Assembly: GCA_018449595.1 (NCBI GenBank)
Contig: JAAVUU010000001.1
Location: 682,001-746,000 of the forward strand
Source: Rhizobiales bacterium dw_265
GTDB taxonomy: Bacteria > Pseudomonadota > Alphaproteobacteria > Micropepsales > Micropepsaceae
Direction of reading: 5' to 3'
DNA length: 64,000 nt
Part shown: in pieces, positions 29,509 to 53,698 of the stretch
Numbering within the stretch: the first letter of the stretch is position 1
Layout of the letters: the number at the start of each line of letters is the position of its first letter
Position numbers and translations under genes: made by a program
Notes under the pieces: model-generated
Seen by the model: the letters and a program-made list of their open reading frames with translations, nothing else
The model's database searches: none
Told to the model about the DNA's origin: nothing

Positions 29509-29531
29509 GACACTCTCTTTGCGTTCGCGGT

Positions 29532-31250: not shown

Positions 31251-31272
31251 GTCTGTCCCCGATGATGGTTCA

Positions 31273-32988
31273 TTAAGCCTGGTATGCCACGTTACCACCC
31301 ACCACGGTCTGGACGATCTTGATGTCCTTGATCTTGTCCGGATCTATGGTGTGCATGTCGTCGGCGAAGATCACATAGTCGGCCAGCTTGCCGGCGGTGA
31401 TCGAGCCTTTGATGTTTTCCTCGAAGGTGTGATAGGCGCCGTTGATCGTGCTGGCTTTGATCGCCTGGTCCACCGTCAGCTTCTGGCTGGGGCCCCAGGT
31501 CTCGCCATTGAAGCCCTTGCGCGTCACCATGCCCTGGATCGCCATACGCGGGTCGAAGGGGCCGGGATAGAAGTCCGAGCCCGTCGTGGCGTTGATCCCC
31601 GCATCGGCCATCGACTTGTAGGCCATCATGTGTTCGGCCATGTCCGCGCCGTAATATTTGAACTTGTCGGCATTGTAATAAATGTAGGTGCTGAACAGCG
31701 ACGGCTGGCCATCCAGCGCCTTGATGCGCTGGATCTGGGTTGCCGACGGCAACGAGCAATGGGTGAATTTCGGCCGCGCATTGGGCCGGGGAAACAATTT
31801 CAGTGCACGCTCATAGGCGATCAGGCTGCGCTCGATTGCCGGCTCGCCATTGCAGTGCGTGTTCAGCCGGATGCCGGCGCGGTGCATGCGCTCGGTCCAG
31901 GCGTTCAGGCTGTCCTGTGGTTCGGTCAGATTGCCCTTATAGGGCGGCGTGACGCCGATATAGGGCCGCGTCATGGACATGGTGCGCGAGGATAGCGCGC
32001 CGTCCTGCACCCGCTCCCAGGTGCCGCCGAAGCGAATCCATTCGTCGCCGAAACCGGTTCGGATGCCGGTCGCGATCATCGCTTCCAGCGTCTCGTTGCT
32101 GCCCTCGTAGTTGATGCGGGTCTTCAGCTTGCCCTGCTGGCGCACGATCTGCATGGCACCAATGACGCTGTCGCGGCCCGAGTCGTAGCAGACCCCGGTG
32201 ATGCCATATTCGGCGAACTTCTGCGAAATGAACGCCACGCCGGCGATCTGGCGCTGCTCGATCTGGGCCGGGGTGAAGCTCTCCTGCTTGCCGAACTTGG
32301 CCAGCACGCGCTGGGCATTGTCGGTCACCCGGCCGGACAGCTCGCCCCGTGCGTCCTTCTCATAGGTGCCGCCATACACGTCGGGCGTGCTCCTGGTGAC
32401 ATTCGCCAACTGGAAGGCGCGACTGTTATAGACGGCCGCATGGCCGCCGCGCAGGCTGACGGCCACCGGATGCGTCGTGGTCGCCTTGTCGAGATCCAGT
32501 CGCGTCAGCTGACGCCCGTCCTTGATCTTGGTGTCGTCATAGAAAGTGGCGTTGATCCAAGTGTCGGGCGGCAGGGTCTTGGCCTTGGCCGCGATCTTGT
32601 CGATGATCGACTGGATGGTGACATACTCCACCACATAAGGATTGCCCGCCAGCACGCCATAGAGCAAGCCCTCACCGCGGCCGTGATTGTGGGTGTCAAT
32701 GAAACCCGGGGTGATAAAGGCGCCCTTGGCGTCGTAGGTGCGGGTTCTGGGACCGGCCATGCTTTTCATGTCGGTGGTCGAGCCCACGGCCATGAACCGG
32801 CCGCCGCGCACGGCGAAAGCCTGAGCCATGGGCTGCGCCGGATCCATGGTGGTGACCTTGGCGTTGATCACGATCAGGTCCGGCGGCGCCTTGTCGTCGG
32901 CCCAGGCGTTCCAGGACGAACCCATCACCATGGCGGCGGTGAAGCCGGACGATTCCAGGAAGGCCCGGCGGCTTTTCAAGATACTCAT
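31273..32988 (-). CDS. Tat-exported amidohydrolase C
   Basis: A 571-residue paralogue with the signal MSILKSRRAFLESSGF. Metal site: GFIDTHNHGRG (His100, His102), LNTHCNGEPAI, THCSLPSATQ and GSDFYPGPFDPRMAIQGM. It shares an almost unbroken ~100-residue block with D (from LSSRTMSMTRPYIGVTPPY to the FTHCSLPSA region), much more similar than the rest of the two proteins. That is a sign of recent duplication or gene conversion. It should be exported and bind a metal like the others. Confidence 0.85.
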   Translation of the reverse strand: MSILKSRRAFLESSGFTAAMVMGSSWNAWADDKAPPDLIVINAKVTTMDPAQPMAQAFAVRGGRFMAVGSTTDMKSMAGPRTRTYDAKGAFITPGFIDTHNHGRGEGLLYGVLAGNPYVVEYVTIQSIIDKIAAKAKTLPPDTWINATFYDDTKIKDGRQLTRLDLDKATTTHPVAVSLRGGHAAVYNSRAFQLANVTRSTPDVYGGTYEKDARGELSGRVTDNAQRVLAKFGKQESFTPAQIEQRQIAGVAFISQKFAEYGITGVCYDSGRDSVIGAMQIVRQQGKLKTRINYEGSNETLEAMIATGIRTGFGDEWIRFGGTWERVQDGALSSRTMSMTRPYIGVTPPYKGNLTEPQDSLNAWTERMHRAGIRLNTHCNGEPAIERSLIAYERALKLFPRPNARPKFTHCSLPSATQIQRIKALDGQPSLFSTYIYYNADKFKYYGADMAEHMMAYKSMADAGINATTGSDFYPGPFDPRMAIQGMVTRKGFNGETWGPSQKLTVDQAIKASTINGAYHTFEENIKGSITAGKLADYVIFADDMHTIDPDKIKDIKIVQTVVGGNVAYQA

Positions 32989-33054
32989 CGCAATTCCCCT
33001 TGCTTACCCTTGCTGGATGGCGGCACCCTCACCGGCCCCGCGCGAAAATCCCCT

Positions 33055-34806
33055 TCACGCCTGATAGCGCGCGACACCGCCGACCACAGTCTGGACGATC
33101 TTCACATCCTTGATCTTTTCCGCATCGATGGCATGGAGATCGTCCGCGAACACGACATAATCGGCCAGCTTTCCAGCGGTGATGGTGCCTTTGATGTTTT
33201 CCTCGAAGGTGTGATAGGCGCCGTTGCTGCTGGAGGCGCGGATGGCCTGGTCTACCGTGACCTTCTGGCTGGGCCCCCAGGTCTCGCCGTTGAAGCCCTT
33301 GCGCGTCACCATGCCCTGGATCGCCATGCGCGGATCGAAGGGCCCTGGCGGGAAGTCGGAGCCAGTGGTGACATTGACGCCGCTGTCCAGGAAAGTCTTG
33401 TAGGGCATCATGTGCTCGGCCAGGTCGGCGCCGTAATATTTGAATTTGTCGGCGTTGTAATAAATGTAGGTGCTGAAGTCTGAAGGCTGGCCGTCCATCG
33501 CCTTGATGCGGCGGATCTGGTCGGCCGACGGCAGCGAACAATGGGTGAATTTCGGGCGCGGATCGGGCCTTGGAAACAGCTTCAGCGCCCGCTCATAGGC
33601 AATCAGGGAGCGTTCGATCGCCGGCTCGCCATTGCAATGGGTGTTGAGGCGGATGCCGGCGCGGTGCATGCGCTCGGTCCAGGCGTTCAGGCTGTCCTGG
33701 GGTTCCGTCAGGTTGCCCTTATAGGGCGGGGTGACGCCGATATAGGGCCGGGTCATCGACATGGTGCGCGACGACAGGCCGCCATCCTGCACTCGCTCCC
33801 AGGCGCCGCCGAAGCGGATCCATTCGTCGCCGAAGCCGGTCTTGATCCCAGTCTTGATCATGGCGTCCAACGTGTGGTCGCCGGGCTCGTAATTGATGCG
33901 CGTCATCAGGTTGCCACGCTGGCGCGCCGTCTGGAACACGTCCAGCAGGCTGGGGCCGGACATATCGCCGGCCACCTCTTCCACCGCGGCGTCGAAGCAG
34001 ACGCTGGTGATGCCGTATTCGGCCCATTTCTTGGAGATATATTCGAAGCCGGCCAGCTTGCGGCGGGCCTTTTCAGCGGGCGTGAACGTCTCGTGCTTGC
34101 CCAGCTTCATCAGCGCCCAGTCGGCGGTGTCGGTGACGCGGCCCGACAGTTCGCCCCGCGCATCCTTCTCATAGGTGCCGCCATAGGGACCGGGCGTGTT
34201 CTTGGTGATGCCGCCCAGCTCGAACGCCTTGCTGTTATAGACCGCGGCATGGCCGCCGCGCAGATCGACGCGGATCGGGTGCTGGGTCGAGGCCTTGTCC
34301 AGGTCGATGCGGGACAGCGGGCGCCCGTCCTTGATCTTGGTGTCGTCATAGAATTCGGCCATGACCCAGGTGCCGGGCGGGGTCTTGGCGGCGCGCGCCT
34401 TCAGCTTGTCGATGATCGACTGGATGGTGACGAATTCCGCGACAAAGGGATTGCCGGCATTGACGCCGAACAACACTTCCTCGCCGAAGCCATGGTTGTG
34501 GGTGTCGGTGAAGCCAGGCGTGATGAAGCCGCCCTTGGCGTCATAGATGCGCGTCTTGGGGCCGGCCAGGCTCTTGATGTCGGAGGTCGTGCCCACTGCG
34601 GTGAAGCGGTCGCCCTTGACCGCGAAGGCCTGGGCCAGGGGCTGGTGCGAATCCATGGTGGTGATCTTGGCGTTGATCACGATCAGGTCCGGCATGCCGT
34701 CCAGCTCGGCGGCGCGCGCCGCCGACAGCCACCCACCCATGCCGACCGTCGCCGCGGTAAAGCCGGCGCACTCCAGAAATGCCCTGCGGCCCTGCACGAT
34801 ACCCAT
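33055..34806 (-). CDS. Tat-exported amidohydrolase D (first of the tandem four)
   Basis: A 583-residue paralogue and first gene of the array. The signal starts MGIVQGRRAFLECAGF with the twin arginines kept. Metal site: GFTDTHNHGFG (His103, His105), LNTHCNGEPAI, THCSLPSADQ and GSDFPPGPFDPRM. A short insert around VEEVAGDMSGPSLL distinguishes it from A-C. Regulon element copy 3 is 61 bases upstream of its ATG. The whole D-C-B-A array runs as one unit, with gaps of 66, 22 and 23 bases. Confidence 0.85.
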   Translation of the reverse strand: MGIVQGRRAFLECAGFTAATVGMGGWLSAARAAELDGMPDLIVINAKITTMDSHQPLAQAFAVKGDRFTAVGTTSDIKSLAGPKTRIYDAKGGFITPGFTDTHNHGFGEEVLFGVNAGNPFVAEFVTIQSIIDKLKARAAKTPPGTWVMAEFYDDTKIKDGRPLSRIDLDKASTQHPIRVDLRGGHAAVYNSKAFELGGITKNTPGPYGGTYEKDARGELSGRVTDTADWALMKLGKHETFTPAEKARRKLAGFEYISKKWAEYGITSVCFDAAVEEVAGDMSGPSLLDVFQTARQRGNLMTRINYEPGDHTLDAMIKTGIKTGFGDEWIRFGGAWERVQDGGLSSRTMSMTRPYIGVTPPYKGNLTEPQDSLNAWTERMHRAGIRLNTHCNGEPAIERSLIAYERALKLFPRPDPRPKFTHCSLPSADQIRRIKAMDGQPSDFSTYIYYNADKFKYYGADLAEHMMPYKTFLDSGVNVTTGSDFPPGPFDPRMAIQGMVTRKGFNGETWGPSQKVTVDQAIRASSSNGAYHTFEENIKGTITAGKLADYVVFADDLHAIDAEKIKDVKIVQTVVGGVARYQA

Positions 34807-40455: not shown

Positions 40456-41763
40456 TCAGGCGATGGACTTCAGGACGGTCGCCAGTTTCTCCACGATTTC
40501 ATCAATCTGGGCGGCGCTGACGATCAAGGGCGGCGACAGCGCGATGATGTCGCCGGTGACGCGCACCAAAAGCCCGTTGTCGAAGCATTTGTGGAAGACT
40601 TCCGTGGCGCGCGCGCCGGGCGCGCCAGGGCGCGATTCCAGCTCGATGCCGGCCACCAGGCCCAGGTTGCGGATATCGATCACCGCCGGCAGGCCCTTGA
40701 GGCTATGGACGGCCTTTTCCCAGTGGCCTTCCAGGCCCGCCGCGCGCTCGAACAGCGCTTCCTCCTCATAGACCGACAGGGTGGCGAGCGAGGCGGCCAC
40801 CGCCAGTGGATGCGCCGAATAGGTGTACCCATGGAAGAATTCGATGCCGTCGCCGGCCGCGCCCAGGATCGTGTCGTAGATCCAACTCGCACTGACCACC
40901 GCGCCCATCGGCACGGCCGCGTTGGTAAGCCCCTTGGCCACGGTGATCAGGTCGGGCGTGACGCCCAGCCGCTCCGACGCCGTCGCGGCGCCCAGCCGCC
41001 CGAAGGCGGTGATCACTTCGTCGAAGATCAGCAGGATGCCGTGGCGCCTGGTGATCTCGCGCAAGGCCGACAGATAGCCGACCGGCGGCACGATCACGCC
41101 GGTGGACCCCGCCATCGGCTCGACGATAACCGCGGCGATATTCTCGGCGCCGTGAAGCTGGACCAACCCTTCCAGCTCCTGGGCCAGATGCGCACCCCAG
41201 GCGGGCTGGCCGCGCGTGAACGCGCTTTCGGCGATGTTGAGTGTGTGGCTGAGATGATCAACGCCCGGCAACTGCACGAAAGCGCTGCGGTTGCTGGCGA
41301 TGCCGCCCACCGACAGGCCGCCAAAGCCCACGCCATGATAGGCGCGCTGCCGCCCGATCAGGCGGGTGCGTGTGCCCTCGCCGCGCGCCCGGTGATAGGC
41401 CAGCGCGATCTTAAGCGCGCTGTCCACCGCTTCCGAGCCGGAATTGGCGAAGAACACCTTGTCCATGCCGTCGGGGAACTTTGCCGCCAGGCGCGTCGCC
41501 AGCTCAAAAGCGCGGGGATGGCCGACATTGAAGGTCGGCGCGAAATCCAGCTGGGCCGCCTCGGCGCGGATCGCCTCGACGATCTTGTCGCGGCAATGGC
41601 CCGCATTGCTGCACCACAGGCCGGCGGTGCCGTCCAGGATCGCGCGGCCTTCCGGCGTGAAATAATGCATATCCTTGGCGTGCGCGAGCATGCGCGGATT
41701 GCGCTTGAACGCCCGGTTGTTGGTAAATGGCATCCAAAATGCACTAAGATCGTTTGACCGCAT
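40456..41763 (-). CDS. Omega-amino acid:pyruvate class III aminotransferase
   Basis: A 435-residue PLP enzyme of class III (BioA/omega-transaminase group). The ATG at 41763 starts MRSNDLSAFWMPFTNNRAFKRNPR, the typical beginning of beta-alanine:pyruvate transaminases. Catalytic parts: NSGSEAVDSA (108-117), the PLP-ring Asp248 in IFDEVITAFGRLG, and Lys277 in VAKGLTNAAVPMGAV. The AYHGVGFGG segment adds ring stacking. It should move an amino group from an omega-amino acid (for example beta-alanine, 3-aminoisobutyrate or GABA) or amine to pyruvate. It is the first gene of the unit under element copy 4. Two ATGs (41763, 41769) are possible. Confidence 0.88.
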   Translation of the reverse strand: MRSNDLSAFWMPFTNNRAFKRNPRMLAHAKDMHYFTPEGRAILDGTAGLWCSNAGHCRDKIVEAIRAEAAQLDFAPTFNVGHPRAFELATRLAAKFPDGMDKVFFANSGSEAVDSALKIALAYHRARGEGTRTRLIGRQRAYHGVGFGGLSVGGIASNRSAFVQLPGVDHLSHTLNIAESAFTRGQPAWGAHLAQELEGLVQLHGAENIAAVIVEPMAGSTGVIVPPVGYLSALREITRRHGILLIFDEVITAFGRLGAATASERLGVTPDLITVAKGLTNAAVPMGAVVSASWIYDTILGAAGDGIEFFHGYTYSAHPLAVAASLATLSVYEEEALFERAAGLEGHWEKAVHSLKGLPAVIDIRNLGLVAGIELESRPGAPGARATEVFHKCFDNGLLVRVTGDIIALSPPLIVSAAQIDEIVEKLATVLKSIA

Positions 41764-41826
41764 GTTCATCAGATTCACGACAAGACCATCACGCCGTGCA
41801 GTGTTCGCCGTGGATGCCGCAACGCA

Positions 41827-41903
41827 CAAGTCTGTTATTTGATTTGATATAAGATGCTGTTTTTGTTCGCGCACGGATTTTTGCGATCACAATAACGATC
41901 ATC
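41827..41903 (-). promoter_or_regulatory. Shared regulon element, copy 4
   Basis: Minus-strand reading: ATGATCGTTATTGTGATCGC, GCGAACAAAAACAGCATCTT, then TCAAATAACAGACTTGTG. Spacing between boxes is 53 bases and the AATAACAG end is 69 bases before the aminotransferase ATG. It lies beside the XRE-cupin regulator gene. Confidence 0.8.
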
Positions 41904-42068: not shown

Positions 42069-42617
42069 TCAGAATGAGGGTGGCGTGCAGGCGCTGATCA
42101 AGACGCAGGGCAACTGCCCGACATTGCGAAACCGATGCGGCAGCTTGCTGTCGAACAGATAAGCATCGCCGGGCCCCAGCACCCGCTTTTCGTCACCGAC
42201 CGTGACTTCCAGGCGGCCCTGGACGACGATCGCGCCTTCCTGACCCTCATGCTGCAAAGGAACGCGCCCGCTGTCCGCCCCTGGCTGATAGGTCTCGTAC
42301 AGGATTTGCAGCGTCGAATGGCTGAGGTCGCTGCCGACCTGGCGATAACTCACCGCGCCGCGGCTGATCTGGGAAAGCTCCTCGCTATGGAAGAAGCATT
42401 GCGCGCTTTTCGGCGCGTCGAAGCTGAAAAATTCCGACAAGGAGGTGCCCGCCGCATCCAGCAGGCGCTTGAGGGAACCGACGGACGGGCTGATCCGGCC
42501 GCTCTCGATAAGGGAAACTGTGCTGCTGGCCACGCCAGCCTTCTTCGCCAGGCCACGTTGCGTGAGACCGGAACGAGCCCGGAAATTGCGCAACCTGGCG
42601 CCCACATTATCCGTCAC
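42069..42617 (-). CDS. XRE-family regulator with C-terminal cupin
   Basis: A 182-residue regulator with a GTG start at 42617, chosen because CAGGAG lies 8 bases upstream; an ATG 36 bases earlier would overlap the operator-like repeat. Residues ~5-60 are a helix-turn-helix (LRNFRARSGLTQRGLAKKAGVASSTVSLIESGRISPSVGSLKRLL). The C-terminal half is a cupin sensor (LQHEGQEGAIVVQGRLEVTVGDEKRVLGPGDAYLFDSKLPHRFRNVG). This is the architecture of PuuR and other amine/amino-acid catabolism regulators. Lying next to element copy 4, it is the best candidate to control the regulon. That role is inference. Confidence 0.85.
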   Translation of the reverse strand: MTDNVGARLRNFRARSGLTQRGLAKKAGVASSTVSLIESGRISPSVGSLKRLLDAAGTSLSEFFSFDAPKSAQCFFHSEELSQISRGAVSYRQVGSDLSHSTLQILYETYQPGADSGRVPLQHEGQEGAIVVQGRLEVTVGDEKRVLGPGDAYLFDSKLPHRFRNVGQLPCVLISACTPPSF

Positions 42618-43138
42618 AGCTTTTGCTCCTGATCCCCACCGCAATGGTGTCACATTTACAAAAGAGTGAAAGTGACTCGATGCACAAAATGAGCGCTTTA
42701 TGCGTAAATTAAGCCGCTTGCTTGGTCATCGTGCTGTTTTTTTCCGCAAAGTGAACATTAACGAGAGAATGGCCGACGACCGACGCGCAGGAAAGCCAAT
42801 AAAAATGGGTTCCAACGCGACTCCGCAGCGGCATCACGCGGTGCGGGTGCGATCCGGTTCCCGGCAGGCGGCTGAACGACCTGATGGGTATGCTCGATTT
42901 TTCGAGCGTTCCGTCCGGGCGCGGAGCAAAAACAGAGGCTTGCCCGCGTTGCAATAACAGCCTTGTGCGCAGTGGCGCGCGCCCCAAAGATCATGGCGAG
43001 GGGACGAAAGAAAAGCGGCGCCGACACGGCCACAAGGCCGGAAAAAAGCCCGCGCAATCCGGGATGGCTGGATGAACTTGCGGCACGATGCCCGGCGGAA
43101 ACGCCGGCATCGGCGCCGATGGCCGAGGGAGATTGCGG
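42618..43138. other. Intergenic promoter region between regulator and SPFH operon
   Basis: These ~520 bases separate two divergent genes. The first part holds the operator-like inverted repeat (42650-42675). Unlike the regulon elements, there is no GATC/AATAACAG pair. Bases ~42700-43120 hold no gene I recognise, and a divergent promoter pair is expected. Confidence 0.5.
42650..42675. promoter_or_regulatory. Operator-like inverted repeat upstream of the regulator gene
   Basis: TCACATTTAC and GTGAAAGTGA are inverted with 8 of 10 bases complementary and a 6-base gap. It lies 33-58 bases before the GTG start of the XRE-cupin gene, a typical place for self-repression. The repeat is seen; binding is not tested. 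Confidence 0.45.
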
Positions 43139-45064
43139 GTGGCGGATGAAGCGCGGGGGACGCCGGTATCGCGGGACGCCGCGGCACGACCGGAGCCAGT
43201 CACGGCGTTGCTGCTGCTGGTTGTGGGCGGCGGGCTGCTGATCGCCGCATTGCTGCGCCATACGGCGACCTTCTATCTCAAACCACTGCTGTTCCAGCTT
43301 TCCGCCGCCTTCCTGATCGCGGCGGCGGGATTTCTCGCCGCCTGGCTCACCGCCTGGGCGCGGGCGCGCGGGACGCGCGAACGCCGCGTCCTCGACTGGG
43401 AATCCCGGCGGCCACTGCCAAAATTCGCCGAACAGGCGCGGCGATATGCGTTCGCAGGCGTCAACCGGATACTGGCGATCGATTGGCGCGGCGACTGGCT
43501 GCCGGTCACGACCGCCGTGCTGCTCGCGTTAGTGGCGCTGTTCGCGCTCTACAAGGGCTGGCGCGGCGACGCCGCGCTGCCGGCGGCGCGGCTGCCCTGG
43601 ATCACCGGCGCGTTGGTGGCACTGGCCTTCCCGCTTCTGGTGCTGGAGCGCCGCCTCACCACCCTGCCCACGGGCCGCACCGGCGAGGGCAAGTCGCTTA
43701 CCTATCTGCTGCGCCTGGTACTGTTCACCCTGATGGGGCTGGCGCTGGCCCATGCCCTGCGCTGGTTCGCCCTGCCGCTGCCGATGGCGGTGGAACATGC
43801 GGTGATCCTATTCAACGGCCTGGTGGCGCTGGAACTGGCGCTGCGCGGCCTCGCCTATCTCTTCATGCCGCTGCCGCCGCTGGCGGAGCGCCGCCACGCC
43901 ACCAGCTTGGTCGCCAGCCTGCTCAGGCTGCAGCGCCCCAGCCTGGTCGCGATCCAGGCCTCGATGAGCAGCCAGTTCGGCATCGATCTGGGGCGCAGTT
44001 GGGCGCTGGGCTATATCCGCCGCGCCTTGCTGCCCATGCTAGGCGCCCTGGTGGCGGCGAGCTGGCTGCTGACCGGCGTCACCACCCTGGGCCCCCGCGA
44101 ACGCGCCGTCTACGAAGCTTTCGGCACGCCATTGTCGGTTTCCCATCCCGGCCTGCATGTCTATCTGCCCTGGCCGTTCGGCCGGCTGCGCCCGGTCGAA
44201 TATGGCGTGGTGCACGAAATCCCGATCGCCTTCCTGGACGAGGAGGTCTACGGCCCGGCGCCGCCGGAAAAGCCCGCGGCGCCGGAAGTCGCCACCATCG
44301 AAGGGCCGCAGCCCGACAGTGCCGACCGGCTATGGGAAGCCTCGCGCCCCACCGAGGCAAGCTATCTGGTCGCCAGCAGCCAGAACGGCCAGGAGAATTT
44401 CGAGGTCATCAATATCGACCTGCGCATCCTCTATCGCATCGGCCTGTCGGATACCGCGGCGATGAACGACGCTTATAATCTGGCGGCGCCGGACGACGTG
44501 ATCCGCGCCGCGGCGGGCCGCATGCTGGCGCGCTATTTCGCCCGCTACACCCCATCGGCCATCCTGGGCCAGAACCGCGAGGCCTTCATCCGCAATTTCC
44601 AGAAGGAATTGCAGGCGCGGCTCAGAACCCTGTCCGACAGCATCGATATCCTGGGAGTGGTGATCGAAACCATCCATCCGCCTGCCGGGGCGGCGGAAGC
44701 CTATCAACAGGTTCAGGCGGCGGCGATCGACGCGGTTACCAAGGTCGCCAATGCCAAAGGCGACGCAGTGCGCGACGTGCGCCAGGCCGAAGCCGACGCC
44801 ATCCAGGCACGCGACGGCGCCACGGCGCAGGCCGCCGAAACCATTGCCGACGCCAAGGTGGGCACCGCGCTGTTCGCGGGCGATGTCGAGGCCTATCGCG
44901 CCGGCGGAGCGGCTTTCCTGTTCGAGAAGCGGCTGGCCAATCTCACCAGTGCGATCACGCCGGAAACCCCGCTCGTCATCCTGGATTCGCGCATTCCCGC
45001 CACCTCGTTGCAGATGCTGCAACTCCGCCCGCCCGCCGCCCAGCCCGGCGGCGGCGGCCAATAA
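43139..45064 (+). CDS. SPFH (HflK-like) protein with long multi-pass N-terminus
   Basis: A 641-residue membrane protein. GTG at 43139 is preferred: GAGGGAG precedes it by ~7 bases. The first ~330 residues contain about seven hydrophobic helices (VTALLLLVVGGGLLIAALL, FQLSAAFLIAAAGFLAAWL, VTTAVLLALVALFAL, ...). The rest is a band-7/SPFH domain (TLGPRERAVYEAFGTPL, HPGLHVYLPWPFGRLRPVEYGVVHEIPI) with an Ala-rich coiled part (VTKVANAKGDAVRDVRQAEADAIQARDGATAQ). HflK/C proteins form large membrane rings that govern FtsH and microdomains. It is the first of three SPFH genes in one operon with a P1B-like ATPase. Confidence 0.8.
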   Translation: MADEARGTPVSRDAAARPEPVTALLLLVVGGGLLIAALLRHTATFYLKPLLFQLSAAFLIAAAGFLAAWLTAWARARGTRERRVLDWESRRPLPKFAEQARRYAFAGVNRILAIDWRGDWLPVTTAVLLALVALFALYKGWRGDAALPAARLPWITGALVALAFPLLVLERRLTTLPTGRTGEGKSLTYLLRLVLFTLMGLALAHALRWFALPLPMAVEHAVILFNGLVALELALRGLAYLFMPLPPLAERRHATSLVASLLRLQRPSLVAIQASMSSQFGIDLGRSWALGYIRRALLPMLGALVAASWLLTGVTTLGPRERAVYEAFGTPLSVSHPGLHVYLPWPFGRLRPVEYGVVHEIPIAFLDEEVYGPAPPEKPAAPEVATIEGPQPDSADRLWEASRPTEASYLVASSQNGQENFEVINIDLRILYRIGLSDTAAMNDAYNLAAPDDVIRAAAGRMLARYFARYTPSAILGQNREAFIRNFQKELQARLRTLSDSIDILGVVIETIHPPAGAAEAYQQVQAAAIDAVTKVANAKGDAVRDVRQAEADAIQARDGATAQAAETIADAKVGTALFAGDVEAYRAGGAAFLFEKRLANLTSAITPETPLVILDSRIPATSLQMLQLRPPAAQPGGGGQ

Positions 45065-45087
45065 TCCGAAAGCAGAAGGTCATCGCC

Positions 45088-46053
45088 ATGTCCGAAGTCG
45101 CAACATCCGAACCCTCCGCTCCCGGTGAAGACAGGCTGGCCTTCTGGTACAGCCGCCGCTTCCTGATCGCCGCACTGGTGGTAGCAGTGCTGGTGCTGTC
45201 GGCCTGCCTGGTGCAGGTCAGTCCCGGCGAGGCCATCGTGGTCACCCGCTTCGGCGATCCGGTGCGGGTGATCACCAGTTCCGGTCTGTCGCTGAAACTA
45301 CCGCAGCCGATCGACAATACCGTGTCGGTGGATTTGCGGCTGCGCACCACCTCCAGCGGCCTGCATGACGTGGGCACGCGCGACGGACTGCGCCTTCTGG
45401 TGCAGGCCTATGTCGCCTGGCAGGTGCCCGATGACGGCGAGCATGTCCAACAGTTCCTGCGCGCGGTGCGCAACAATCCCGACGTCGCCGCCGAACAACT
45501 GCGCAGCTTCACCGGCTCGGCGCTTGAGGTGACCGCCGGCAGCTTCGACCTCTCCAGCCTGGTCAACACCAATCCCTCCAAGATCCGCCTGGCGGAATTC
45601 GAGGAGGCGCTACGCCGCCGCATCAACGATCAGGCGATGAAAGTCTATGGCATCACCGTGCGCCAGGTCGGGCTGGAAAGGCTGACACTGCCCAACCAGA
45701 CGCTGGTCGCCACCATCGACCGCATGAAGGCCGAACGCTCTACCGTGGCGGCGGAACGCTCGGCCGAAGGCACCCGCCAGGCGGCACAGATCCAGGCCGA
45801 CGCCGACCGCGACGCGCGCGTGCTGACCGCCCAGGCCAAGGCGGACGTCGCCGATATCGAAGCCAAGTCGCGCATCGACGCCGCCGCCATCTACAAGAAG
45901 GCCTATGCCGCCGATCCGCAGCTCTACACGATGCTGCGCTCGCTGGATGCGCTGGGCACCATGGTCAACGGCAACACCATGGTGGTGCTGCGCACCGACG
46001 CCGCGCCCTTTCGCGCGCTGGTCGAAGGCCCCGGCGCAAAGGGCGGCAAATGA
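45088..46053 (+). CDS. HflC-like SPFH protein
   Basis: A 321-residue band-7 protein with one N-terminal helix (RRFLIAALVVAVLVLSACLVQVSPGE). The beginning VSPGEAIVVTRFGDPVRVITSSGLSLKLPQPIDNTVSVDLR is the HflC pattern, followed by a long helical part (STVAAERSAEGTRQAAQIQADADRDARVLTAQAKADVADIEAKS) that makes ring contacts in HflKC. It probably forms a hetero-oligomer with the SPFH proteins on either side. Its stop overlaps the next gene by 4 bases (ATGA). Confidence 0.85.
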   Translation: MSEVATSEPSAPGEDRLAFWYSRRFLIAALVVAVLVLSACLVQVSPGEAIVVTRFGDPVRVITSSGLSLKLPQPIDNTVSVDLRLRTTSSGLHDVGTRDGLRLLVQAYVAWQVPDDGEHVQQFLRAVRNNPDVAAEQLRSFTGSALEVTAGSFDLSSLVNTNPSKIRLAEFEEALRRRINDQAMKVYGITVRQVGLERLTLPNQTLVATIDRMKAERSTVAAERSAEGTRQAAQIQADADRDARVLTAQAKADVADIEAKSRIDAAAIYKKAYAADPQLYTMLRSLDALGTMVNGNTMVVLRTDAAPFRALVEGPGAKGGK

Positions 46054-47093
46054 GCCAGGCCACCGCCGAAGACACACGCGACGTCGGAGCCTGGGGCCAG
46101 GCGGTCGCGCTGTCCTTCCGCTTCCTGCAGTTCGCCGCCGCCGCCATCGCCATCGGCTGGCTGGTGTCCAATGTCCGCCAGGTGCCGCCCGACAACCAGG
46201 CGGTGGTGGTGCGCTTCGGCACCGTGGCACGGGTGCAGGGTCCGGGCCTGCTCTTCGCCCTGCCGCGCCCGCTGGAGCAGGTCACTTTGATCCCTGCCTC
46301 GGCGCGGCAGATCGGCTTGCGCGTCGCGCGCTTCGACGATGGCGGCAGCAACGACAATTCCAACCGCACCATGGGCTTCGACATCAACGAGAAGCCTCGG
46401 CTCAATTCCGGCTTCCTGTTGACGGGGGATTCCAGCGTCATCCATCTGGAGGCCGAAATGTTCTACCAGGTCGACGATCCCCAGGCCTATATGGTGGCGG
46501 CCGACCATGTCCGCCCGGCGCTGCAGCGCCTTGTGATCGCCAGCGCCATCGACATCATCGGCGCGCGCGACCTGGACGCCATCCTGGTGGCGCGGCCGGA
46601 AAACGCCTCCAAGACGGAGGAAGCGGCGCGGCGCGAGCGGCTGCGCGCCGACCTGGTTCATGCCGTCAATGAGCGGCTGCGCAAGCTGGACGAACAGGGC
46701 GCGCCGCTGGGGGTGGTGGTCAACCGCGTGGACCTGATGCCGTCCATACCGCGCGGCGCCCATGACGCCTTCGACTCGGTGCTGGCGGTAACCCAGGAAT
46801 CGGCACGCGCCATCGCCGCCGCCGAGACCAATAAGGAAATCACCGCCCAGAAGGCGCAAAGCGACGCCGACGCCATCAAGTCCAACGCCAGCGCGGCGGC
46901 GGAGGAGAATGTCTCCAAGGCCACCGTCGCCACCGCCTCGATTACCGCATTGGGCAGCTCCGACAAGGACATGTCGCGCGGCATGCAGATGACGCGCCTC
47001 TATTACGACCGCGTCGGGCCGATCCTCAAAAAGGCGGCCAAGGTGCAACTGGTCTCGGCCGACGCGCATGCCAACGGGGGAACAAAGCCATGA
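46050..47093 (+). CDS. HflK-like SPFH protein
   Basis: A 347-residue band-7 protein with a single N-terminal helix (FLQFAAAAIAIGWLVSNVRQVPPDNQ). The domain starts PPDNQAVVVRFGTVARVQGPGLLFALPRPLEQV, typical of HflK. The later helical part (IAAAETNKEITAQKAQSDADAIKSNASAAAEENVSK) resembles the HflC neighbour. The three adjacent SPFH genes suggest a mixed ring. It overlaps both neighbours by 4 bases, so translation is coupled. Confidence 0.82.
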   Translation: MSQATAEDTRDVGAWGQAVALSFRFLQFAAAAIAIGWLVSNVRQVPPDNQAVVVRFGTVARVQGPGLLFALPRPLEQVTLIPASARQIGLRVARFDDGGSNDNSNRTMGFDINEKPRLNSGFLLTGDSSVIHLEAEMFYQVDDPQAYMVAADHVRPALQRLVIASAIDIIGARDLDAILVARPENASKTEEAARRERLRADLVHAVNERLRKLDEQGAPLGVVVNRVDLMPSIPRGAHDAFDSVLAVTQESARAIAAAETNKEITAQKAQSDADAIKSNASAAAEENVSKATVATASITALGSSDKDMSRGMQMTRLYYDRVGPILKKAAKVQLVSADAHANGGTKP

Positions 47094-49015
47094 ATGCCAT
47101 CGCCCAGGCCGCGCCGGACGCCGACGATGCGTTGCTCAGCGGCAGCGAACAGCATGCCCTGGCCTGGCGGCTGGGCCTGTCGCTGGGCGCGGCCTGCGCC
47201 CTGCTTCTGTCGGTGGGGTTGCGCTTCTTCAGACCGCAACAGGAAGACGTGGCCCAACTGGTCGCCGGCATCGCCGCGCTGATGGTGGGAATTCCCGCAC
47301 TGCAGGCGGCGTGGCGCTCGCTGCGCCATCCCGACCTGCACGGCATCACCGACCAGCTCATCGCGCTGGCCTTTATCGCGGCCTGGGCCGGCGGCGACCT
47401 GGTCACCGCCACCCTGCTGCCGCTGATCATGATGATCAGCCACATCCTGGAGGAGCGTTCGCTGCTGGGTTCGCAGGAAGCCATCCGCGCCCTCACCAGC
47501 CTGACGGAGAAGACCGCCCGCCGCATCGCCGCCCATGGCGAGGTCGAGGAGATCAACGCTGCCCACCTCAAAAGCGGCGACATCATCGAGGTCCGCGCCG
47601 GCGACCGCGTGCCGGCCGACGGCGAAGTGCTGACCGGCTCCTCCAGCGTGGACACCGCCTCCATCACCGGCGAGTCGGTGCCGATCGATGTCACAGCGGG
47701 CTCGCAGGTGTTCAACGGCTCAATCAATATGGATGGCCTGCTCACCATCCGCGTCTCGCAAGTGGGCAGCGACACCACTCTGGGACGTGTGATCGCCCTG
47801 ATGCAGGATGCCGAACACATCAAGCCCGCCATCACCAAGCTGCTGGAACGCTATGCCGGCGGCTATATGGCGCTGGTGCTGCTGGTGTCGGCCTGCACCT
47901 GGTTCCTCACCGGCAATACCGGCGCCATGCTGGCGATCCTGGTGGCCTCCTGCCCGGTGGCGCTGGTGCTGGCGGCGCCCACCACCTCCATCGCCGCCAT
48001 TTCGGTGGCCAGCCGTCACGGCATCCTGGTGAAAGGTTCCGCCTTCCTGGAACAACTGGCGGGCGTGGACGCGGTGGTGTTCGACAAGACCGGCACTATC
48101 ACCTCCGGCGAGTTGCGCCTGGTAGGAACCGCCGAGGACCCCGGCGTGGATGCCGCCAGCATGGTGCGGCTGGCGGGCAGTCTGGGCGCGGCCTCAAGCC
48201 ATCCGGTCAGCCGCGCCGTCGGCATGGCGGTGAGCGAGGCCGAGCGACTGCCCATCAGCGACATCAAGGAGACCAGGGGCCTGGGCATTGTCGGCACGCT
48301 GGACGGCGCCAAGGTGGCGCTGGGCCGCGGTGCCCTGTTCGAAAGCCTGGGCATCGCCGTGACGCCCGCGCCTTCCAGCCATGACGGGCCGGTGGCGGGT
48401 GTCTCGCATGGCGCACGCTTTCTGGGGTGGGTGCTGCTGGCCGATCAGATCCGCCCGGAAGCCGAAACGGCGCTGCGCGAGCTTCGCAGCCTGGGTCTTG
48501 GCCGCCAGATCATGGTGACGGGCGACCGCCGCGCCGAAGCCGAACGGGTCGCCGCACGCATGGGCATCACCGAGGTGCGCCCGGAAGCCCTGCCGCATGA
48601 GAAAATGCAGTTCGTGCTGGAAGAGGCCAAGGCCGGCTATCGCACCATGGTGGTGGGCGACGGCATCAACGACGCGCTGGCGCTCAAGGCCGGCGCGGTC
48701 GGCGTCGCCATGGGAGCGCAGGGCACCGATGTGGCGCTGGCATCGGCCGATCTTGTGCTGATGACCAACGACCTCAGGCGGCTGGGCACCAGCGTGCGGC
48801 TGAGCCGCAAGAGCCGCCGCACCATCATGATCAATGTCGGCATCGGCATGGGCTGGACGGTGGTGGTGGTCGGCGTCGCCGCCTGGGGCGTGTTCGGCGC
48901 TTCCAGCGCGCTGGTCGCCGCCCTGATGCAGAATTTCGGCACTTTCGCGGTGATGGCCAATGCCGGACGGCTGCTGAAGTTCCAGGACCGCGAGCCGGAC
49001 GAGGACGCGGCCTGA
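47090..49015 (+). CDS. P1B-like cation-transporting ATPase without an HMA domain
   Basis: A 641-residue P-type ATPase. Motifs: TGES (193-196), phosphorylation site DKTGT (Asp332), SSHPVSRAV (P1B nucleotide-binding HP motif) and GDGINDALAL. In the membrane helix that usually holds the CPC metal site it reads SCPVALVLAAP (Cys288-Pro289-Val290), so one ligand is missing. There is no N-terminal CxxC heavy-metal domain and only a short N-terminal helix pair. It may move a transition metal or another ion with altered selectivity. Coupling to three SPFH genes suggests a ring-associated pump. Confidence 0.82.
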   Translation: MNAIAQAAPDADDALLSGSEQHALAWRLGLSLGAACALLLSVGLRFFRPQQEDVAQLVAGIAALMVGIPALQAAWRSLRHPDLHGITDQLIALAFIAAWAGGDLVTATLLPLIMMISHILEERSLLGSQEAIRALTSLTEKTARRIAAHGEVEEINAAHLKSGDIIEVRAGDRVPADGEVLTGSSSVDTASITGESVPIDVTAGSQVFNGSINMDGLLTIRVSQVGSDTTLGRVIALMQDAEHIKPAITKLLERYAGGYMALVLLVSACTWFLTGNTGAMLAILVASCPVALVLAAPTTSIAAISVASRHGILVKGSAFLEQLAGVDAVVFDKTGTITSGELRLVGTAEDPGVDAASMVRLAGSLGAASSHPVSRAVGMAVSEAERLPISDIKETRGLGIVGTLDGAKVALGRGALFESLGIAVTPAPSSHDGPVAGVSHGARFLGWVLLADQIRPEAETALRELRSLGLGRQIMVTGDRRAEAERVAARMGITEVRPEALPHEKMQFVLEEAKAGYRTMVVGDGINDALALKAGAVGVAMGAQGTDVALASADLVLMTNDLRRLGTSVRLSRKSRRTIMINVGIGMGWTVVVVGVAAWGVFGASSALVAALMQNFGTFAVMANAGRLLKFQDREPDEDAA

Positions 49016-49027
49016 CCTGCTGATCGC

Positions 49028-49104
49028 TTTGATGCGTATTTCGATCAATCGGCGCGGGAGATCAGCGAAAATATGCTCTTACCGCACATGCAATAACAGA
49101 ATTG
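49028..49104 (+). promoter_or_regulatory. Shared regulon element, copy 5 (divergent)
   Basis: Plus-strand reading: TTTGATGCGTATTTCGATCAA, GCGAAAATATGCTCTTACC, then GCAATAACAGAATTGCC. The boxes are degenerate relative to copies 1-4, but the GATC-to-AATAACAG spacing is again 53 bases. It precedes the aminotransferase-like gene, and is the only copy outside the minus-strand block. Confidence 0.6.
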
Positions 49105-49159
49105 CCGGAACGGGCCCGCCGTGATGAATCCTGTTCATGTGGAACGTCTTTCCTGTCGA

Positions 49160-50293
49160 ATGTCTGCGCGGGCCGCGATGAATATCGCGGGCGAGGACGC
49201 CGGCTTGCCGGCGACGTGTGCGTCTGCGCGCGCCCTGCAGGTCCGCCTGCCGCAGGGCGTTACGGTGTTGGACGCCACCGGCGGTGACGGCCGCATGGGC
49301 GCGGGCCGTGACCGCGAGCGCATCGCCGCCGCCCGGCGCGCTGCCGGACCCGGCGCCGCTACGGTTGCGGAACGCAACCGGCTGCGTCAGGCGGTGGCGG
49401 CGCTGATGCCGCCTTTGCTGGATGATATCTCCTTCGCCGCCTCCGGGGCGCAGGCTATCGCCCGCGCCATCGCCATGGTCGGCGACTATCATCGCAGGCG
49501 CGGCCAGGCCGGGCGCCAGCGCATCATCATCTGCGCCGGCCGTCCCAAGGACGATCCTTGTCCGGCGCCGTTCCATACGGCAGACGTCTTTGTCGGCCGG
49601 GCGTTGCGCAACGTCGCCGCCCAGTTGGCGGCGCTGGGGCCGGAATGCGTGGCCGCGATTCTGATCGAGCCGCTGGGTCTGGCCGATGAGATGATGCCGT
49701 TCAGCGCCGCCGACATGCAGGAACTGCGCCTGCTCTGCGAACGCAGCGGCGTGCTTCTGATATCGGACGAAAGCGTGGCCGGGCTGGGCCGCACCGGCGC
49801 AGCCATCGCCGCCCAGCGCCTGGACGTGATACCCGACCTGGCGGTGATGGGCGAAGTGCTGACCAACGATGTCGCGCCACTGGGCGTGGTGGTGGCGCGG
49901 GCGGAGATAGCAGGATCGTCGGCCGAGGCCGAACCCATGGCCGGCACGGTCGCCGCAGCGATGGAAACCCTGGCGATCTATGACCAGGAACAACTGTTCC
50001 GGCGTAGCGCCGAACTGGAGCTCTATTGGAAGCGGAACATCCATAGCCTGGCGGGCGCGCCCGCCATCGCCGAGATCCGCTGTCTGGGACTGGCGGCGGC
50101 GCTCGTGCTGGCGCCCCGCCCCGGCGATCCCGGCGGGCGGGGACAGCTTCTCCACTGCTACAGCCTGGACTATGGCGTGCTGACGCGGGTGCAGAAGGAC
50201 ACAGTGCTCCTGACCCCATCGCTGGTCATCACCAGGGACCAGATTGACGAGATCGTCGAAAAGCTTTCCGCCGCCTTGCGGAAAATCACCTGA
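49160..50293 (+). CDS. Class III aminotransferase homologue lacking the PLP lysine
   Basis: A ~377-residue diverged paralogue of the aminotransferase at 40456. It keeps the fold (LIEPLGLADEMMPFSAADMQELRLLCERSGVLLISDESVAGLGRTGA; TRDQIDEIVEKLSAALRKI at the end, nearly the same as the paralogue). The lysine that bonds PLP is replaced by glutamate: PDLITVAKGLTN in the paralogue reads PDLAVMGEVLTN here. The GSEA motif has become ASGA. It is ~45-60 residues shorter, mostly near the N-terminus. It cannot act as a normal transaminase. It may be a pseudo-enzyme, subunit or ligand sensor. Starts at 49121, 49160 and 49178 are possible; 49160 or 49178 suits the element's position. Confidence 0.78.
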   Translation: MSARAAMNIAGEDAGLPATCASARALQVRLPQGVTVLDATGGDGRMGAGRDRERIAAARRAAGPGAATVAERNRLRQAVAALMPPLLDDISFAASGAQAIARAIAMVGDYHRRRGQAGRQRIIICAGRPKDDPCPAPFHTADVFVGRALRNVAAQLAALGPECVAAILIEPLGLADEMMPFSAADMQELRLLCERSGVLLISDESVAGLGRTGAAIAAQRLDVIPDLAVMGEVLTNDVAPLGVVVARAEIAGSSAEAEPMAGTVAAAMETLAIYDQEQLFRRSAELELYWKRNIHSLAGAPAIAEIRCLGLAAALVLAPRPGDPGGRGQLLHCYSLDYGVLTRVQKDTVLLTPSLVITRDQIDEIVEKLSAALRKIT

Positions 50294-50314
50294 ACACAAG
50301 CGGGAGCAAAGTAC

Positions 50315-51817
50315 GTGCGCAAGATCGGACATTTCATGAATGGGGCGACGGTCGCCGGGACCGGCGCGGAAGCGGATATCTTCAATCCCGCGACCGGCGA
50401 GGTCGTCGCCCGTGTCGCGATGGGCGGTGCGGCGGAGCTGGAAGCCGCAGTCGCCAGCGCCCGGATCGCACAACCCGCCTGGGCCGCAACCAATCCCCAG
50501 CGCCGCGCCCGCGTGCTGACGAAGTTCGTCGCGCTGGTCTATGACAATATGAAGCCGCTGGCCGAACTGATGTCGCTGGAACATGGCAAGACGGTGGCCG
50601 ATTCTGCGGGCGACCTGCAGCGCGGCGTGGATGTGGCGGAATTCGCCATCGGCATCCCGCATCTGGGCAAGGGCGAGTTCACCATCGGCGCCGGTCCGGC
50701 ACTGGACATGTATTCCATGCATCAGCCTATCGGGATCGGCGCCGGCATCTCGCCATTCAACTTCCCGGCCATGATCCCCCTGTGGATGAGCATGCCGGCC
50801 ATTGCCTGCGGCAACGCCTTCATCATGAAACCGTCGGAGCGCGATCCCTCCGTACCGATGCGGCTGGCGGAACTCTTGATCGAGGCTGGACTGCCCAAGG
50901 GCATCTTCAATGTGCTGAACGGCGGCAAGGCGGCGGTGGAGGCGATCCTGGCCCATCCCGATATCGGCGCTGTGTCCTTTGTCGGCTCCACGCCCGTTGC
51001 CGCCCATGTCTATGCGGAAGCGGCGCGCAACGGCAAGCGGGTGCAGAGTTTCGGCGGCGCCAAGAACCACGCCATCGTGATGCCCGATGCCGACATGAAC
51101 ATGGTGGCGGACGGACTTATCGGAGCGGCTTACGGTTCGGCGGGCGAACGCTGCATGGCGATCTCGGTGGCGGTTCCGGTGGGCGAAGGCACCGCCGAGC
51201 GCATGATGGAGGTGCTCAAGCCGCGGGTGGAGGCACTGAAGGTAGGCCCCTATACCGCCAGCGATGTGGATTTCGGCCCCGTCGTCACCGCCGCCGCCCA
51301 GGACAAGATCAAGTCGCTGGTGGACAGCGGCGTGGACCAGGGCGCCGAACTGGTGGTGGACGGCCGCGACTTCCGCCTGCAGGGTTATGAAAAGGGCTTC
51401 TATGTCGGCCCCTGCCTGTTCGATCGGGTCACGCCGGAGATGGAGATCTACAAGCAGGAAATTTTCGGGCCTGTGCTGTCGGTGGTGCGGGCCAGGACCG
51501 CCGAGGAGGCTCTGACGCTGGTCAACCGCCATGAATATGGCAACGGCGTCTGCATCTTCACCCGCGACGGCGATGCGGCGCGCAATTTCTCGCGCCAGGT
51601 CCAGATCGGCATGGTGGGCGTCAATGTCCCCATCCCCACGCCGCTGGCCTATTACGGCTTCGGCGGCTGGAAGCGTTCGGTGTTCGGCGATTTGAACCAG
51701 CATGGACCGGATTCCATCCGCTTCTGGACACGCACCAAGACGGTGACCGAGCGCTGGCCCTCATCGATCCAGCGCGGCGCGGAATTTTCCATGCCGGTCT
51801 TTTCGGCCAACAAATAG
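50315..51817 (+). CDS. mmsA: CoA-acylating methylmalonate-semialdehyde dehydrogenase
   Basis: A 500-residue aldehyde dehydrogenase of the MmsA group, starting with GTG after CGGGAG. Motifs: MKPSERDPSVPMRLAELLIEAGLP, the GGAKNHAIVMPDAD segment that is specific to MMSDH (its Asn replaces the Glu of ordinary ALDHs), and the catalytic Cys280 in SAGERCMAISVAV. It converts malonate or methylmalonate semialdehyde to acetyl- or propionyl-CoA with NAD and CoA, releasing CO2. That is the expected fate of the keto product when beta-alanine or 3-aminoisobutyrate is transaminated. It follows the lysine-less aminotransferase gene by 21 bases. Confidence 0.92.
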   Translation: MRKIGHFMNGATVAGTGAEADIFNPATGEVVARVAMGGAAELEAAVASARIAQPAWAATNPQRRARVLTKFVALVYDNMKPLAELMSLEHGKTVADSAGDLQRGVDVAEFAIGIPHLGKGEFTIGAGPALDMYSMHQPIGIGAGISPFNFPAMIPLWMSMPAIACGNAFIMKPSERDPSVPMRLAELLIEAGLPKGIFNVLNGGKAAVEAILAHPDIGAVSFVGSTPVAAHVYAEAARNGKRVQSFGGAKNHAIVMPDADMNMVADGLIGAAYGSAGERCMAISVAVPVGEGTAERMMEVLKPRVEALKVGPYTASDVDFGPVVTAAAQDKIKSLVDSGVDQGAELVVDGRDFRLQGYEKGFYVGPCLFDRVTPEMEIYKQEIFGPVLSVVRARTAEEALTLVNRHEYGNGVCIFTRDGDAARNFSRQVQIGMVGVNVPIPTPLAYYGFGGWKRSVFGDLNQHGPDSIRFWTRTKTVTERWPSSIQRGAEFSMPVFSANK

Positions 51818-52890: not shown

Positions 52891-53460
52891 CTTTTCGTTT
52901 ATCGCAACGGATCGCGATCCTGGTACTTCCGCTACATGCTGAACGGGCGGTTGCGGGAGATGGGTCTTGGCTCTTTCAATGCTGTAACGCTTGGGGAGGC
53001 CCGCAAAAGAGCAGCCGAGTGCCGCCTTCTTAAAAGCGGGGGAACCGATCCAATAGAAGCCCGCCGCCGCAAGCGGCAGGAAGCCAAGCTGGAAGAGGCG
53101 CGGGCGCTCACCTTTCAGCAATGCGCGGAATCCTACATCAAGGCGCACCAGCCATCCTGGCGCAGCGCCAAGCACGCCGCGCAATGGACAAGCACACTGA
53201 AAGCCCATGCCTATCCGGTATTCGGCAGCTTATCCGTCCAGGCCGTGGATACCGCCCTGGTGATGAAGGTGCTGGAGCCATTGTGGGCCGAGAGGCCGTC
53301 AACGGCCGCCCGCCTCCGGGGCAGGATCGAGAGCATCCTCGACTGGGCCAAGGGTCACAGGGCCGGGGAGAACCCGGCCCGCTGGTGGGGCCATATTCAA
53401 AACATGCTCCCCCGCATTTCCAAGGTGCGGAAGGTGAAGCACCACAACGCGCTACCCTAA
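52891..53460 (+). pseudogene. Truncated tyrosine-type integrase, middle part
   Basis: A P4-type integrase fragment missing both ends. It begins near the IS junction (GACLFVYRNGSRSWYFRYMLNGRLREMGLGSF) and continues through the core-binding domain (CAESYIKAHQPSWRSAKHAAQWTSTLKAHAYPVFGSLSVQAVDTALVMKVLEPLW...RLRGRIESILDWAKGHRAGENPARW). It ends in HHNALP followed by a stop, just where the catalytic domain should start. It is about 88% identical by eye to the remnant near 15.3 kb in the shared part. It lies 148 bases from tRNA-Ser, the normal home for such integrases. Confidence 0.82.
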
Positions 53461-53608: not shown

Positions 53609-53698
53609 TGGCGGACAGGGTGGGATTCGAACCCACGGTACCCTCACAGGTACGCCGCATTTCGAGTGCGGTGCCATCGACCACTCGACCACCTGTCC
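53609..53698 (-). tRNA. tRNA-Ser (anticodon CGA)
   Basis: A 90-base tRNA with CCA encoded. The acceptor stem pairs GGACAGG at the 5' end with CCTGTCC before G-CCA. The anticodon loop ACTCGAAA gives CGA (serine, UCG codons), a long variable arm is present as expected of tRNA-Ser, and the T-arm has GGGTTCGAATCCC. Adjacent integrase remnants suggest that its 3' end served as an island attachment site. Confidence 0.95.

Follow-up and report, generated by a model that had tools for sequence, protein, structure and literature searches.

LCB1 of serine palmitoyltransferase is broadly conserved and needed in its complex. It is a PLP-fold (fold type I) paralogue that has no lysine and stands beside catalytic LCB2 (PMC3794620). 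Among aminotransferases, AptA (NCBIfam NF052567) is a beta-alanine:pyruvate transaminase, and in Cupriavidus necator mmsA1 is directly preceded by aptA (PMC6572756). Searches of titles and opening lines of abstracts in open-licence PMC turned up no lysine-less class III aminotransferase, and passages of PMC6522883 likewise describe none.

The window analyzed here – the whole stretch of 64,000 nucleotides from Rhizobiales bacterium dw_265 – contains an intact aptA and, 9 kb from it, an AptA-like gene in which glutamate stands at the position of the PLP lysine. We compared this gene with AptA sequences from other genomes, plasmids and viral contigs, with the orthologous site in a relative, and with simulations of neutral decay.

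The AptA-like gene and its neighbors

The features on which the analysis draws are as follows (identities are to G016, the closest relative found).

49121..50293, + strand: AptA-like class III aminotransferase homologue without the PLP lysine (ORF scan, pairwise alignment, profiles)
50315..51817, + strand: mmsA, (methyl)malonate-semialdehyde dehydrogenase, next gene after a 21-nt gap (621 bits to TIGR01722; 87% identical)
47090..49015, + strand: heavy-metal P-type ATPase, upstream neighbor (85% identical over residues 1-607)
40456..41769, - strand: aptA, intact omega-aminotransferase with the lysine, paralogue behind the same element (705.3 bits to NF052567, cut-off 500)
42069..42653, - strand: XRE-cupin regulator, PuuR-like yet below the PuuR cut-off (84% identical)
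49092..49104, + strand: AATAACAGAATTG, copy of the AATAACAGNNTTG element upstream of the AptA-like gene and mmsA
41827..41839, - strand: AATAACAGACTTG, copy of the element upstream of aptA
17859, 27394, 34867, 41827 (- strand) and 42953, 49092 (+ strand): all copies of AATAACAGNNTTG

The frame of the AptA-like gene is open from a GTG at 49121 through the TGA at 50293 (a 390-aa ORF), with no internal stop and no frame change relative to AptA; ATG codons at 49124, 49160 and 49178 are alternative starts. Ribosome-binding strength is weak at all four candidate starts (-2.6 to -4.6 kcal/mol), a measure that proved uninformative since intact aptA is equally weak (-2.4 and -2.7 kcal/mol). The sole Pfam match is Aminotran_3 (PF00202; 115 bits against a gathering cut-off of 30.5), covering just positions 179-403 of the 403 in the profile, and the top NCBIfam model is AptA, at 180.2 bits far under the 500-bit equivalog cut-off. 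Pairwise alignment with the paralogue gives 38% identity. The ORF of the paralogue extends over 40456-41874 (- strand); its start was taken as the ATG at 41769, and AptA residues are numbered from this first ATG. An 874-aa antisense ORF (49079-51703, - strand) spans the AptA-like gene and mmsA, and most likely arises as a side effect of the GC-rich coding on the opposite strand.

Since aptA is known to precede mmsA in Cupriavidus necator, and is seen to do so in a congener (G006, with 5 nt between a match to aptA and the mmsA match that follows it on the same strand), the AptA-like gene fills an aptA slot. The original prediction had also placed it under the promoter element of a regulon, a claim borne out by six exact and local copies of the 13-base AATAACAGNNTTG. 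With up to one mismatch allowed the window holds six matches, all exact, compared to a mean of 0.17 after shuffling. The 4.2 Mb genome as a whole has six exact matches, all within one 31-kb stretch (17859-49104), and the reversed-pattern control gives one. Behind these copies lie two amidohydrolase genes, a TonB receptor (recognized by eye), aptA, the SPFH/P-ATPase genes and the AptA-like gene. G016 has eight matches (one for the reversed control), and none was found in seven other family members. The copies form a very local regulon, of which the XRE-cupin regulator, given its place in the island, is perhaps the reader.

Other features of the region deserve mention. Three consecutive SPFH/band-7-like genes (the first of which was run against Pfam) and the heavy-metal P-type ATPase occupy 43088-49015 (+ strand) behind the same element, an arrangement conserved in G016. 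Five amidohydrolase-like paralogues, four of them in tandem, lie at 27781-34806 and 16085-17773 (both - strand; the Pfam model Amidohydro_3 was run on one of the five), and a TonB receptor, a PQQ-type dehydrogenase and a DHDPS relative were recognized by eye nearby: the region is perhaps a catabolic island for a nitrogen-containing substrate. A short integrase ORF (52936-53460, + strand) with arm and central domains only is found near tRNA-Ser(cga) (53609-53698, - strand), where G016 has an amidohydrolase after its GNAT gene; this is a possible island edge.

The cofactor site and the fold

To compare the protein with AptA we used an alignment of 59 AptA rows (58 distinct sequences, L032 and L091 being one gene), from which rows with less than 50% identity or under 380 bits to aptA were left out. 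The lysine position was read in these rows, in nine viral or contig rows and in four of the six other class III genes of the genome. Two sites in the DNA are central:

49853..49855, + strand: GAA (Glu) codon at the Schiff-base lysine position (K in 59/59 aligned AptA rows)
49439..49456, + strand: ASGAQA, counterpart of the phosphate loop NSGSEA (alignment with AptA rows)

The alignment behind the original prediction – PDLAVMGEVLTNDVAPLG of the AptA-like gene against PDLITVAKGLTNAAVPMG of aptA – was reproduced, and with it the replacement of the PLP lysine by Glu: the column is K in every AptA row and E here. The residue had been called Lys277, a number that fits the second in-frame ATG of the paralogue; from the first ATG it is Lys279. 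The cofactor loop had been misread, with ASGA given as the counterpart of GSEA: NSGSEA aligns with ASGAQA, so that GSEA has become GAQA, with A and Q in place of S112 and E113, both invariant in 59/59 rows. Beyond these sites the frame had been described as intact. It is open, but the same cannot be said of the protein as a whole: among the 101 columns where 95% or more of the AptA rows agree, it preserves 49, carries a different residue in 33 and lacks 19 through deletion, a loss of 52.

Pocket residues lost from the AptA-like gene are W52, S112, E113, Y144-H145-G146 (deleted), V252, K279 and T316 (now Ser); those retained are G111, E217, D250 and R403. We take the Tyr-His-Gly to be ring-stacking, GSEA to be the phosphate loop, the Thr to serve the phosphate and partner subunit, the Asp to bind the pyridine and the Arg to bind the substrate carboxylate. 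The losses are not concentrated in the active site, with 4 of 12 pocket positions of our choosing kept vs. 45 of 89 others (Fisher P = 0.36). Gly and Pro positions are among the invariant columns lost, and about 28 columns of the large domain are missing through a deletion (18 residues in the pairwise alignment with aptA). Only five lysines remain, at residues 143, 304, 359, 381 and 388 of the 390-aa ORF, and in the sequence alignment none of them coincides with the pocket lysine. Because the PLP pocket is dismantled – lysine to Glu, phosphate loop altered, Tyr-His-Gly and partner Thr gone – this protein should be unable to perform aldimine chemistry, and its PLP transamination has almost certainly been lost.

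AlphaFold2 run with 11 rows predicts a class III fold (pLDDT 84.4, pTM 0.84), to which the nearest structures are omega-transaminases (Z 43.1 to 7ypm_A and 4bq0_A). On the single sequence it returned no usable fold (pLDDT 39.0), so that the 11-row result leans on homologues; a fold type I (class III) structure is a plausible prediction for the AptA-like protein.

Distribution and the orthologous site in G016

No orthologue of the AptA-like gene was found in the 41 relatives searched, in 96 family genomes (the same 96 being all those of the order search), or in 385 class and 398 phylum genomes; these sets overlap and count the genome itself, the class and phylum searches scored the best 4-5 candidates per genome, and the searches from family to phylum took in only matches beyond strict E-values. 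Among the matches listed, the best foreign one comes from G322 and belongs to an AptA gene that has the lysine; identity is 40% across residues 156-376 of the 377-aa form. In plasmids 1,517 records matched, but in none did a single place cover 80% of the query, and identity was always below 60%. A search of genome contigs found one distant aminotransferase, with its lysine present. In viral contigs a single-paralogue query found no relative; an alignment query found 29 loci, eight of which were aligned, with the lysine in 8/8. A wider Lys-to-Glu class, for which the original prediction had proposed a search, did not emerge: there was no orthologue in the genome sets or plasmids searched, and AptA rows were uniformly K. 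Among the AptA sequences compared, the nearest to the aptA of the island is encoded on an IMG/VR contig (L099, 2983-4308; 71% identical). By eye this gene lies between phage-like and helicase-like genes, and the 5.7 kb of contig covered contain no mmsA match.

A recent copying of the neighboring aptA was considered and rejected, the AptA-like gene having 6 of the 61 private residues of aptA, near the all-row median (0.089). The tree gives the gene no firm place, and its end branch measures 6.46 changes per column vs. a median of 0.18.

G016 allows the orthologous site to be inspected directly. Contig C161 has the regulator, the element, the three SPFH genes and the P-ATPase up to residue 607 (66-85% identical); contig C253 has the P-ATPase tail, the element, a 92-nt leader, mmsA (87%) and then the GNAT gene (65%), and no aminotransferase gene interrupts this series. 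The AptA-like gene is therefore absent at the orthologous site. Synonymous divergence over nine orthologous pairs is 0.67-1.82, with dN/dS of 0.06-0.27. Matches to the AptA-like gene listed in this genome, 82% complete, are at most 36% identical, and no close counterpart of the island's aptA was found in the same 82% (best 59%). A deletion scar was sought by comparing the 92-nt leader with either gene end and was rejected (P 0.04-0.32 relative to shuffles, one of nine comparisons below 0.05). Since nothing clearly recognizable of the AptA-like gene is found in the leader, gain in dw_265 and loss in G016 are not separable.

Decay, constraint and the role of the gene

By NG86, dN/dS is 0.55-0.75 in six pairs of the AptA-like gene with AptA vs. 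0.22-0.34 in seven functional pairs (all shared columns, synonymous sites being near saturation), about twice the value for functional genes. Simulations of neutral decay were halted once the observed count of lost invariant columns had been reached, a calibration on which the secure-column test rests. No stop arose in 0-22% of runs over the aligned gene, and in 19-49% for secure columns. At least four length changes relative to AptA, by our own reading of the alignments, are in phase between clearly aligned blocks (ten gap events are listed). Where invariant residues have been replaced, the substitutions are milder than in neutral runs (P 0.01-0.05); profile and hydropathy scores at variable columns resemble those of neutral runs. 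The multi-hit codon signal of the full alignment was attained in 0/200 runs in each of eight settings; it is not relied on as evidence of selection, since the secure C-terminal columns give a P of 0.17-0.22.

Over all aligned columns, GC at codon positions 1, 2 and 3 is 0.751, 0.515 and 0.825, with positions 1 and 2 above every AptA row. Neutral runs did not reach the position-1 value at mutational GC of 0.575 and 0.67 (0/200 runs). At 0.75 the P for position 1 is 0.02 and position 2 was reached or topped in 98-100% of runs; at 0.85 position 2 was matched or topped by all. For the whole alignment, then, no one mutational GC reproduces the values well. The secure columns of the C-terminal half (n=186) have GC of 0.726, 0.425 and 0.828 (live AptA means: 0.668, 0.438 and 0.794). 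For these columns P at positions 1-3 is 0.007, 0.037 and 0.018 at mutational GC of 0.575, and 0.037, 0.007 and 0.092 at 0.67; at 0.75 and 0.85, position-2 GC lies below all 400 runs. None of the four neutral settings fits all three positions in this C-terminal test, which was devised after the multi-hit and GC results for the full alignment were in view. For all other columns, which comprise the N-terminal half and the surroundings of gaps, arithmetic gives a position-2 GC of ~0.61. Constraint thus looks uneven, the C-terminal half behaving as a protein under some selection and the rest not, and the low position-2 GC points to amino-acid constraint.

The best single reading, to which we give a little less than an even chance, is that the gene is a non-catalytic, relaxed and dispensable relic in the aptA slot, most likely without a needed function. 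It would be a catalytically dead, lineage-restricted AptA-type member of an aptA-mmsA transcription unit, made redundant for beta-alanine-type transamination by the intact aptA behind the same element. Polarity on mmsA would keep the frame of the gene open and in phase: a stop or frameshift ahead of mmsA would uncouple translation and lower mmsA expression. Polarity is insufficient alone, because it would not hold position-2 GC; the frame would also stay open because decay is incomplete, and least advanced in the C-terminal half. Decay is favored by losses all over the protein, fast evolution and absence from G016, and opposed by the open frame, the in-phase length changes and a C-terminal codon-position GC unlike that of neutral runs. 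Redundancy, polarity and the absence of function are inferred. The C-terminal GC led us to lower the relic from slightly better than even, and to raise a functional pseudoenzyme from doubtful to a substantial possibility, below even but close behind the relic. In this alternative the whole protein or, at a minimum, the C-terminal half would fold and have a non-catalytic action; in the simplest form it would pair with catalytic AptA and tune stability, substrate access or flux into MmsA, by analogy with LCB1 and LCB2. The element common to both genes, the intact frame with its mild replacements, the predicted class III fold, the retention of Glu217, Asp250 and Arg403, and a C-terminal GC near that of live genes and unmatched by neutral runs all speak for it, as does the precedent of LCB1 (PMC3794620). 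It has to contend with the empty site in G016 and the lack of an orthologue in the sets searched, with the lost Gly and Pro positions and the large-domain deletion, and with variable columns that score as neutral runs do.

A plain pseudogene in early decay, with no useful product and a frame open by chance in GC-rich DNA, is improbable. The opposite strand is open too (the antisense ORF), at a mutational GC of 0.8 neutral runs without a stop make up 7-22%, and the full-alignment rise in position-2 GC is what drift would produce at mutational GC of 0.575-0.67; but the length changes keep the phase, positions 1 and 3 have not moved to the GC of the spacer (0.575), and C-terminal position-2 GC is below drift at every setting tried. 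Less probable still, to the point of being very unlikely, is a new chemistry, in which a lysine-free site binds PLP or PMP without a covalent bond, or binds another ligand, and catalyzes a different reaction. The retained Asp and Arg, presumably for pyridine and substrate carboxylate, would suit such a site; the loss of the phosphate-loop Ser, the ring-stacking Tyr-His and the partner Thr leaves little to hold a cofactor, and no family built around the new residues turned up. The original prediction, that the gene had been kept and hence served as a structural, sensory or regulatory protein or performed a new chemistry, is well supported as to the loss of the PLP mechanism. That it was kept is a mixed matter, and the roles drawn from this are conjectural: the open frame, in-phase gaps, mild replacements and C-terminal GC argue for it, and the lack of an orthologue, the empty site in G016, the unfocused losses and a dN/dS about twice that of functional pairs argue against.

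A more specific proposal, which we regard as rather unlikely, is that the gene encodes a recent regulatory or structural pseudo-subunit of an omega-aminotransferase that shares its regulation with the catalytic paralogue and with the enzyme that follows in the pathway. It would then be the class III equivalent, in one bacterial lineage, of LCB1/LCB2. If so, it would be a simple bacterial system for how a dead paralogue tunes a transaminase. If the gene is a relic, it offers a clear case of a cofactor site lost with the frame open inside an operon, datable against the relative's empty site. Either way, the label "aminotransferase" would be wrong for its activity. The dead paralogue is a known kind, and the failure to find a Lys-to-Glu case in the searchable part of open-licence PMC is weak evidence of novelty.

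Compared to AptA, the AptA-like gene falls short of the 500-bit cut-off of NF052567, has no PLP lysine and no Tyr-His-Gly, and has an altered phosphate loop and Ser for Thr; it resembles AptA in its best NCBIfam model, its place before mmsA, its 38% identity to the paralogue and its Glu217, Asp250 and Arg403. Unlike LCB1, broadly conserved and required in its complex, it was found in one genome and is known here from sequence; like LCB1, it is a lysine-less paralogue, with a predicted PLP fold, that accompanies a catalytic one.
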